A stretch of 64,000 bases of DNA from Hyphomicrobiales bacterium (GTDB taxonomy: Bacteria; Pseudomonadota; Alphaproteobacteria; Rhizobiales; Aestuariivirgaceae). The notes under the pieces were generated by a model that searched no databases, was not told the origin of the DNA, and saw only the letters and a program-made list of their open reading frames with translations. Positions within the stretch are counted from its first letter, which is position 1; every line of letters starts with the position of its first letter. A program made the translations under genes and the position numbers. Positions 31,891-34,058 of this stretch are shown in pieces. The stretch covers positions 62,001 through 126,000 of the forward strand of contig JACPNZ010000031.1 of assembly GCA_016185245.1 (NCBI GenBank). The letters are read 5' to 3'.

Positions 31891-31976
31891 GTATAGCGGC
31901 GATCTCCCCATATGGGGAGACGGCTACGGCTTTGCGAAGCCGTTGCGTTGAAACATTCGCCGGTGTAGCCGGGGCT

Positions 31977-32774
31977 ATGCAAGAGCTTGTCTCCCCCACC
32001 CCACACATGCGGGCTTTCCTCGACGGATCAATCGGTTGGCTGGTGCTCAACCGGCCCGAGCGGCGCAACGCGCTCGCTACGCCCATGTGGGCGGCGATCC
32101 CGCCATTGATGAAATTGCTTGATGACAGCCTTGATGTGAAGGCGATCGTCATCCGGGGCGCGGGCTCGGAAGCCTTCGCCGCCGGCGCCGATATTTCCGA
32201 ATTTGGCAGCGCCCGCAGCGATGCCGAGGCGGCCAAATCCTATGAGCAACTGAATGGTGCCGCCTTCGCCGCCATCCGCGGTGCGGCAAAATCGGTCATC
32301 GCCCTGATCGAGGGCTTTTGCATCGGCGGCGGCCTCGCCATTGTCTTGGCTTGCGACCTCCGCGTGGCCGCCCCCTCGGCCCTCTTTGCGCTCCCCCCGG
32401 CGAGGCTCGGCCTTGCCTACCCGCTCGACGGCTTGCGCGATCTGGTGGCGACGGTGGGAGCCCCTGCGGCTAAGGAGCTTCTCTTCACCGCCCGCCGCAT
32501 TGGCACCGAAGAGGCTCTCCGCATCGGCCTCATCAACCGCATCGCGTCCGACGCTGAGGCCGAGACCCGCGCCCTCTGCGCCGAGATCGCCGACGGCGCC
32601 CCCCTTTCGATCGCCCACGCCAAGCGCGCCATCGATCTCATCGCCGAAAAGCCCGGCCACCTCTCCCAAGCGGAAGTCATGGACCTTGCTACCCGCTGCT
32701 TCAACAGCACCGACTACGCCGAAGGCCGCGCCGCCTTTGCCGAGAAAAGGAAACCGAGGTTTGGGGGCACTTAG
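31977..32774 (+). CDS. Enoyl-CoA hydratase/isomerase family protein
   Basis: 265-residue crotonase. Seen: GWLVLNRPERRNALATPMW, the oxyanion stretch AFAAGADISEFG, and GFCIGGGLAIVLACDLRVAA with the second oxyanion Gly. The glutamate usual at the catalytic position 'PExxxG' is replaced here by PPARLGLAYPLDG, so it may be a hydratase variant, isomerase or decarboxylase-like member. ATG at 31977 chosen; 32007 is an alternative. No pathway partner is adjacent. Confidence 0.88.
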   Translation: MQELVSPTPHMRAFLDGSIGWLVLNRPERRNALATPMWAAIPPLMKLLDDSLDVKAIVIRGAGSEAFAAGADISEFGSARSDAEAAKSYEQLNGAAFAAIRGAAKSVIALIEGFCIGGGLAIVLACDLRVAAPSALFALPPARLGLAYPLDGLRDLVATVGAPAAKELLFTARRIGTEEALRIGLINRIASDAEAETRALCAEIADGAPLSIAHAKRAIDLIAEKPGHLSQAEVMDLATRCFNSTDYAEGRAAFAEKRKPRFGGT

Positions 32775-32818
32775 CATTCTTGTGCATTCTTGCCATGGCC
32801 ACACTCAGCACAGTAAGA

Positions 32819-32959
32819 GCCCTCACCCGACCTGCGTTCGCTTCGCTCACCCCTCTCCCACGCCTTCGGTGCGGGCGAAGGTACAAGACGACCATGGCCT
32901 TCGCCCGTCCCGGACTTGATCCGGGATGGGAGAAGGTGGCCGACAGGCCGGATGAGGGC
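32819..32959. repeat. Composite inverted-repeat element between the crotonase and the hydrolase
   Basis: Fills most of the gene-free stretch 32775-33008. GCCCTCACCCGACCTG (32819-32834) pairs with CAGGCCGGATGAGGGC (32944-32959) at 14 of 16 positions. Inner stems are CCTTCG/CGAAGG (32864-32881) and TCCCGGA-CTTGA-TCCGGGA (32908-32926). This mosaic is typical of dispersed non-coding repeats in alphaproteobacteria. I see no gene in it. Confidence 0.65.
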
Positions 32960-33008
32960 CCTTTGGCAGCCGCCAGGAAAATATTTCGATTCCGTCGTCG
33001 ATTCCTTC

Positions 33009-33036
33009 TTGACACTGTTTTCCTATGATGTATATT
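33009..33036 (+). promoter_or_regulatory. Strong orphan promoter facing the hydrolase gene
   Basis: TTGACA (33009-33014), 16-bp spacer, TATATT (33031-33036), in an unusually AT-rich patch; an alternative -10 TATGAT lies at 33024-33029. Transcription would run rightwards from about 33043 into a structured RNA and then antisense to the hydrolase. No normal-length coding sequence follows. Confidence 0.6.
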
Positions 33037-33042
33037 CGATCC

Positions 33043-33208
33043 TGTCTCCTTCCCATGGAGGGGCGGTTCGCGAGCCGTCGAAGACCGGGGAAGAAGATGC
33101 GGGGCCTGAAGTGGAAAGCGACGGACGCTTTCCTAACCAGGGACCGCTCACACTCCCCGGATTGCCCGCCGGGCAATCCCTCCTTCGGTGGATAAAGGAG
33201 GCCGAACC
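33043..33208 (+). ncRNA. Candidate structured leader or small RNA
   Basis: Three strong stems in a row: GGAAAGCG/CGCTTTCC (33113-33120, 33126-33133); a 9-bp perfect stem with triloop GGATTGCCC/GGGCAATCC (33159-33167, 33171-33179); and CCTCCTT/AAGGAGG (33179-33185, 33195-33201). The last one hides an AAAGGAGG ribosome site 7 nt before an ATG at 33209. That ATG opens a frame of only 37 codons. This looks like a translational-control leader separated from its gene, or a stable RNA. No known class was recognised. Confidence 0.4.
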
Positions 33209-34005
33209 ATGGTTTCGAGTGGAAAGCCTCTGGAAGTCGGGTGTGGGCAATGGTCACCGGCGTTGCCGAGAAATTCCACGACTGCCTGCTTGAAGCCCTT
33301 GTCGCCCACCGCATTCATATGATTGCGGCCGGGGAGTGTGACGCCTCTCGCGCCGGGAATGGCGGCAACCAGAGTTGCCACATCTCCGGCGATATCGTCC
33401 TTCTCGCCCGCCACCACCAGGACCGGGCAGGTGATGTGGCTCAAGTCTTCGGCGGTAATCTTCACCCGCGACGAGCGCATGCAGGCGGCGAGCGCCTTCA
33501 AGTCGCTCTTGGTCTGTTCGGCAAAGATACGAAACGAACGGGCGCCGGGGTCGCTGACGTCATCGCGGTTCGGCGCCTCCAGCCCTTTGGCAACCGCTTC
33601 GCCGCCGCCCACCCCGGTGATCATGCGCGACGCCAATCCGGCAAAGACGGCGCGCCGCACCTGTTCCGGATGGCGCATTGCGAGGAACGCGGCAATCCTG
33701 GTACCCATGGAATAGCCCATGACATCGATGCGGCTAAGACCCAGATGGGTGATGAGACGGCTTGCGTCATCAGCCATGGTGGCGGCCGGATAGAAGGCGG
33801 GGTCGTAGAGCTTCTGGCTCGAGCCATGGCCGCGATTGTCGATGGTTATAACCCGGCGGCCCGCCTCACTCAAAGTCTTGACCCAGCCCGTATCCCACCA
33901 GTTGACCCGGCCGTTCGAGGCAAAGCCGTGGATCAACAGGATCGCCGGCCCCTCGCCCGCCTCGCGCCAGGCGATCTCCACGCCTGCCGAATTGAATCTG
34001 TGCAT
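33148..34005 (-). CDS. Alpha/beta hydrolase with an unusual C-terminal extension
   Basis: 285 residues. Core: AILLIHGFASNGRVNWWDTGW (oxyanion region), TIDNRGHGSSQK, nucleophile elbow DVMGYSMGTRIAAF (Ser in GYSMG), and the catalytic His in LPGRNHMNAVGD. The domain normally ends about where FKQAVVEFLGNAG lies; the remaining 34 or so residues (from DHCPHPTSRG) are the antisense of the leader region at 33148-33250 and look non-native. The ATG at 34005 fits the family; one four codons upstream is possible. Substrate unknown. Confidence 0.85.
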   Translation of the reverse strand: MHRFNSAGVEIAWREAGEGPAILLIHGFASNGRVNWWDTGWVKTLSEAGRRVITIDNRGHGSSQKLYDPAFYPAATMADDASRLITHLGLSRIDVMGYSMGTRIAAFLAMRHPEQVRRAVFAGLASRMITGVGGGEAVAKGLEAPNRDDVSDPGARSFRIFAEQTKSDLKALAACMRSSRVKITAEDLSHITCPVLVVAGEKDDIAGDVATLVAAIPGARGVTLPGRNHMNAVGDKGFKQAVVEFLGNAGDHCPHPTSRGFPLETMVRPPLSTEGGIARRAIRGV

Positions 34006-34058
34006 GGCGCGAAACATATGCTAATCGCCCGGTCACTCAAGGCTTTTCGAGGTTCACC

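Follow-up and report, generated by a model that had tools for sequence, protein, structure and literature searches.

The sequence described here lies within a window of 64 kb, the whole stretch of DNA that was analyzed, in the space between two convergent genes. To the left is a crotonase gene of the enoyl-CoA hydratase family (31932–32774, plus strand; PF00378, 3.5e-44), and to the right is an alpha/beta hydrolase gene (PF00561, 4.5e-26) whose minus-strand frame extends from 34017 down to 33148. The two genes are about 480 bp apart, and the gap is occupied first by a REP-like palindromic intergenic sequence (32815–32965, its extent in the gap between crotonase and repeat being set by eye) and then by a 3′-truncated copy of a repeat (33008–33256, plus strand) that contains a promoter, an RNA body, a Shine-Dalgarno (SD) sequence and the start of a small frame. 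The REP-like stretch, CCCTCACCC...GATGAGGGC, includes an inverted repeat (32867–32881/32898–32912), and its GATGAGGGCC end is also present just upstream of the repeat copies on contigs C33 and C13, such that REPs may be a favoured landing site.

Comparison with other genomes shows that this DNA is additional. Twenty-four loci from other genomes were considered, of which 22 were read and eight were compared with the window for gene spacing; four of the eight have no crotonase end beside the hydrolase. In four relatives of the same genus (L011, L016, L018 and L031) these two genes are also convergent and their stops stand 9, 4, 7 and 9 nt apart, leaving no room between them for the REP-like stretch, and the hydrolase frame is 252 codons long from the preceding stop and ends in FLA* or FLG*. 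The native part of the hydrolase gene in the window spans 33257–34017 (minus strand), as seen from Pfam and from the matches in other genomes, which begin at query position 260 (window position 33259) or beyond. Because the native stop is gone, the last ~36 codons of the hydrolase, stop included (33148–33256, minus strand), are read from the antisense strand of the repeat. We also note a 13-nt perfect inverted match between 33148–33160 in the repeat and 33329–33341 in the native hydrolase, perhaps a matter of chance.

The left end of the repeat carries a sigma-70-like promoter, TTGACA-16-TATATT (33009–33036, plus strand), with TTGACA at 33009–33014 and, after a 16-nt spacer, TATATT at 33031–33036. 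It matches 11 of the 12 consensus bases and is the sole site with that score on either strand of the window (spacer 16–18, at least 5/6 matches in the -35 box). Upstream of it is GGAAAATATTTC (32976–32987, plus strand), an upstream element or UP-like site that occurs seven times in the genome, in all seven cases just upstream of a repeat copy (reversed control, 0). The structured RNA body (33043–33206, plus strand; model R1) follows, and the RNA from 33043 to 33230 has a predicted folding energy of -90.5 kcal/mol (z -3.75), lower than that of any of 200 dinucleotide shuffles, which average -73.0 (sd 4.7). The promoter, the strong fold and the 37-codon length of the frame starting at the ATG at 33209 (33209–33322 with stop, plus strand, within an ORF at 33188–33322 of the ORF list) are all as given in the first-pass annotation. 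Its further claim that the last of the leader's stems hides the SD is, by the predicted fold, correct as to the hiding and wrong as to the partner. The SD, AAAGGAGG (33194–33201, plus strand), is largely paired in the predicted fold, with a mean unpaired probability of 0.14; among 200 composition shuffles with the SD left intact the mean is 0.55, and 0.5% of them reach a value as low. Six of its eight bases (33195–33200) have their main partners at the RNA's 5′ terminus (33046–33051, probability 0.89–0.96), whereas the last local stem (33180–33185) pairs with the SD at a probability of only 0.02–0.04; base 33194 is unpaired, and 33201 is divided between partners 33045 and 33248. In this model the helix between the RNA 5′ end (its 5′ strand at 33044–33051, plus strand, with one of eight pairs broken in the C30 copy) and the SD would close the leader much as the first helix closes a riboswitch.

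The leader is one cut-off copy of a short genome-specific repeat with a promoter-like sequence and, probably, a structured RNA, as emerges from a search of its own genome (3.5 Mb in 58 contigs, 97.2% complete), which to judge by its gene content probably belongs to an alphaproteobacterium. The 5′ part is present at 13 places including the window, the 12 others being 90–99% identical to it, and the 3′ part, which the window copy lacks, is present at 11 places of at least 140 nt, the same 11 being recovered with the other 3′ subtype as query. The copies share their left ends: in 10 of the 12 others the match begins with CTTGACA itself (33008) or with the base ahead of it (33007); in the C35 copy it starts six bases ahead of CTTGACA, and in the C31 copy well inside the promoter. 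There are two complete copies, one of 361 bp (C29:164484–164844) and one of 365 bp that holds a run of N (on C35), and the full repeat is about 360–400 bp long, with ~400 bp reached by summing if the central segment of the window copy is included. Its right boundary in the window (33256/33257) was set by alignment with the other copies, which continue past 33256 with AAAATCCGCGG..., where the window switches to the end of the hydrolase gene. Copies on C22, C2 and C31 are also truncated, and C56 and C35 carry 3′-only copies. Since the 3′ half is missing from the window copy, its transcript would run antisense into the 3′ end of the hydrolase mRNA. The first-pass annotation had offered, as one of two alternatives, that a deletion brought the leader up against the hydrolase 3′ end; that some event did so is supported, in the form of an insertion plus a truncation. 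Contig ends hold 6 of the 13 places with the 5′ part and 7 of the 11 with the 3′ part, and the stretch shared at such ends is often ~141 nt, which would be in keeping with repeats having interrupted a short-read assembly. Heptamer-like tracts, for instance CTACTCACTATTCGC, or near variants on either strand, flank the copies at L041, L047, L059, L062 and L065.

The small frame varies among the copies. The SD and ATG are visible in three of them (window, C30 and C8), and on C30 they lead into a frame of only 23 codons ending in TGA, so the 37-codon frame of the window is a by-product of truncation. In the complete C29 copy the segment with SD and ATG is replaced by other sequence, and in the complete C35 copy it falls in the run of N; the small frame is thus no fixed part of the repeat. 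Neither the 23-codon frame nor a 46-codon frame in the RNA body (33055–33195) has a Pfam match or, with the latter extended to 56 codons, a PHROG match; one minus-strand frame of the repeat has a weak PHROG match of unknown function (0.008). Three differences are seen in the 46-codon frame among six aligned rows, each changing a residue by our reading, and in the RNAalifold structure one of these leaves its pair intact, another disrupts a C-G pair and the third falls in a loop. Protein coding by the 46- and 23-codon frames was rejected on the lack of Pfam and PHROG matches and, for the 46-codon frame, on these residue changes.

Most of the genes around the copies turn their 3′ ends to the repeat (17 of 24 flanking genes). 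On the upstream side 10 of 13 genes run towards it, and on the downstream side 7 of 11 are convergent with it (excluding the 3′ sides of truncated copies); orientation here is that of the best-scoring neighbouring frame, a heuristic, and two of the seven converging frames are 452 and 675 nt away, such that a nearer gene may have been missed. The repeat is thus found mainly at the 3′ ends of genes, and the antisense arrangement noted in the first-pass annotation is common in the family. The neighbours tested with Pfam include an amino acid kinase (pyrH by reading), ClpP, trigger factor, a CBS/CorC protein and hydrolases, and the protein beside the C35 copy has no Pfam match; the remaining neighbours are named by reading. 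The C30 copy (L047:1889–2165) lies between clpP and tig and supplies the last residues and the stop of trigger factor, which keeps nearly all of its C-terminal domain (Trigger_C positions 2–148 of 162), and a carboxylesterase-like gene on C22 follows a repeat frame as an in-frame fusion. About 0.5 kb from the doubly truncated copy on C31 is a gene for a ThsA-type protein of Thoeris defence (L043:67–1281; PADLOC, 5.5e-153). What appears by eye to be the 3′ end of a tRNA gene lies between the two, as at an island attachment site, and ARAGORN found no whole tRNA there.

The repeat was found in its own genome only. Conservation of the sequence or stems outside this genome, the lack of which was one half of the refutation set in the first-pass annotation, failed to appear, the repeat part being present in 0 of 36 same-genus genomes both by BLAST and by covariance model. 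With a query of repeat plus hydrolase, BLAST gives matches in 25 of 61 genomes, all of which outside its own genome fall at the hydrolase part (query 260–331). In the order sample 2 of 397 genomes match, its own and one with a 35-nt match that is chance-like on reading, and no homologous leader was found in relatives either there or with the covariance model, which matches one of 80 genomes, its own. The 3′ half matches 5 of 100 genomes, its own and four with matches of 23–32 nt; the complete C29 copy as query matches 4 of 385 genomes in the class sample, its own and three with matches of 27–51 nt that fall in coding sequence by eye. These counts refer to the best candidates scored per genome: up to 11 for the same-genus BLAST, 2 for the order, 8 for the 3′ half, 36 for the covariance model and 2 for the class. 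In collections that may omit the window's own record, the 5′ part has no match among plasmids or phages, and L042:1770–2170 none among plasmids; among the contigs of the species genomes there are 198 pattern matches of which none was confirmed, and a 20-mer scan gave three matches of 21–22 nt overall; among viral contigs exact patterns gave 4, 7, 0 and 0 matches, with a longest aligned stretch of 37 nt. An Rfam search, one of the checks suggested at first pass, gave no family for the leader: only two tRNAs in the window exceed the gathering threshold, and the best of the sub-threshold matches for 32780–33350 scores 20.8 bits against the required 47.9. Readings of the IS110, IS200-leader and HEARO types were also considered, and HEARO is absent from the Rfam match lists. 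Among the titles listed in literature searches none concerns this repeat. Having no relative in the samples searched, the repeat looks either recent in the species or too fast-evolving to follow.

We compared the repeat with known classes of mobile DNA. In size and copy number it resembles a MITE (361 and 365 bp; 13 and 11 places), and the complete copies are too short for a transposase gene. Between the first 40 bases and the reverse-complemented last 40 bases of the two complete copies the longest exact word is 4 and 6 nt, and their 30-nt flanks share direct words of at most 4 and 5 nt (shuffling gives P values of 0.75 and 0.33). Assignment as a MITE was set aside for lack of terminal inverted repeats or target duplications on these two copies, the true ends of which may lie elsewhere because seven copies share sequence further upstream. 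With no terminal inverted repeat, target duplication or linked transposase, it is the distribution of the copies alone that points to mobility. As regards palindromic elements derived from IS200/IS605, hairpins are predicted in the repeat, and the single Y1_Tnp match in the genome (C11:115812–116090, L125; 31.3 bits, cut-off 23), in a 240-codon open frame, is unlinked to it. This frame may encode a REP-associated transposase, and it is a possible, unlinked candidate for the enzyme that mobilizes the repeat. It was judged unlikely that breaks between contigs conceal a longer form with a transposase at its centre, since the contig-end copies overlap at ~215–221 of the element and the window and C30 copies continue unbroken.

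Conservation within the repeat is uneven. Across 12 copies, 19 of the 41 columns of the promoter segment are variable; across 10 copies, only 2 of the 96 columns of the RNA body are (Fisher p 3.9e-10). The body count leaves out two contig-end copies with 66–67 nt of body, and both counts leave out the copy on C31, in which the -35 box is missing. TTGAC is kept in 12 of 13 copies (as TTGACA in 11 and TTGACG in one of the 12 that retain that end), and by reading two of the promoter subtypes have a good -10 box (TATATT and TATAGT) and a third has a weaker one. Selection acting on the RNA would fit the low variation of the body, as would gene conversion, and the near-invariance of the body may be inflated by a short-read assembler that merges similar paths. 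The consensus of the three leader copies has 57 pairs, two of which are broken in one copy each, in both cases that on C30 (one in the SD-closing helix, one elsewhere), and no pair in the leader or 3′-half alignments has a two-sided compensatory change; the 3′ halves form two subtypes, in which variable predicted pairs are preserved by one-sided changes. A complete copy also folds strongly (z -3.60), and the 3′ half alone, predicted to form one long hairpin and shorter ones, barely beats its shuffles (z -1.36 and -1.97). The covariance model also matches the reverse strand of the genome's own copies and so leaves the strand unsettled. The RNA of the repeat may have a role of its own, the other of the two alternatives in the first-pass annotation.

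We consider it probable that 33008–33256 represents the 5′ portion of a single copy of a non-autonomous dispersed repeat that is specific to this genome, bears a promoter and encodes an RNA. A full copy would consist of a sigma-70-like promoter at the left end, a structured RNA body of ~150 nt and a hairpin-bearing 3′ half. We infer that the repeat is transcribed, from its own promoter, and is mobile, having presumably spread through an enzyme acting in trans, with selection tolerating it mainly at gene 3′ ends. The same copies could instead be the functional genes of a host-encoded, multi-copy small RNA family that is kept alike by selection or gene conversion and is not selfish, as might be suggested by an RNA body far more conserved than the promoter region, the retention of TTGAC, and the restriction of GGAAAATATTTC to seven repeat copies; however, the failure of BLAST and covariance model to find it in any of 36 same-genus genomes, the several truncated copies and the sub-threshold Rfam scores make this unlikely. 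We regard as quite improbable a mobile element that lacks terminal repeats and transposase and whose promoter-made, structured RNA is recognized by the spreading machinery (retro-insertion or an RNA-guided recombinase), although a near-invariant RNA body beside a diverged promoter, with copies truncated at either end, is compatible with it. The first-pass annotation saw a leader without its gene. The gene is indeed absent, and a hidden SD, a good promoter and a strong fold are what a translation-controlled, riboswitch-like mRNA leader would have; but loss of the gene by deletion is very improbable given the TGA after 23 codons on C30, the complete copy without SD and ATG, and the searches of relatives, which found no homologous leader. 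No conserved gene, or class of gene, lies behind the leader, the neighbours differing at each copy, and the leader of a lost gene was rejected since the other copies precede no common gene. Least probable of all is a misjoining of short repeat reads to the hydrolase end in assembly, for although many copies lie at the ends of contigs and one contains a run of N, the flanking crotonase and hydrolase are the neighbours expected from the relatives, the window's contig is 235 kb long, and similar joins of repeat to gene end occur at tig (on C30) and other genes.

Reading the locus as a truncated dispersed repeat implies that a riboswitch-like promoter and SD-hiding leader without a gene can be a repeat fragment, and copy number in the genome of origin is the first check for such orphan leaders. 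If transcribed, the family would place antisense promoters at the 3′ ends of many genes within a single species, and it would exemplify the recent spread of a repeat that encodes an RNA and bears no visible mobility signals.

The family is best read as a new one of a kind already known, the non-autonomous, promoter-bearing, RNA-encoding intergenic repeat; the comparisons below follow those portions of the published accounts on which we draw. The closest in description is QMITE1 of Coxiella burnetii, which is 300–400 bp long, occupies 45 full and partial ranges, and has sigma-70 promoters, a structured RNA, small frames and overlaps with gene C-termini, with no orthologue reported in other genomes in that portion of the account (PMC5896051). 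Compared by description, the two are alike in length, sigma-70 promoter, small frames and gene-end overlap. However, QMITE1 RNA is made in Coxiella whereas that of our repeat is predicted from sequence, and QMITE1 has terminal inverted repeats of 21–28 nt and direct repeats of 2–4 bp (PMC5896051), neither of which was found on our two complete copies. The Correia elements of Neisseria are likewise short and dispersed and have sigma-70-like promoters able to act on neighbours, but in the account used they are treated as MITEs and lie mainly upstream of genes (PMC10969869), whereas our repeat lies mainly at gene 3′ ends. Br-REP1 and Br-REP2 of Bradyrhizobium are intergenic and structured, are found in 3′-UTRs (Br-REP1 between convergent genes), and evolve fast between related alphaproteobacteria, as our repeat may also do; they are much shorter palindromes, at ~200 (Br-REP1) and at least 50 (Br-REP2) sites, and a promoter of their own is not among the features described in the portion of the source used (PMC5082802), in contrast to the promoter-like sequence here. 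Finally, the Rickettsia palindromic elements, as described in part of the source, supply codons to host genes as our repeat does, but are ~150 bp long and inserted in frame inside genes (PMC10969869), whereas in the cases examined here it is the ends of genes that are rewritten.
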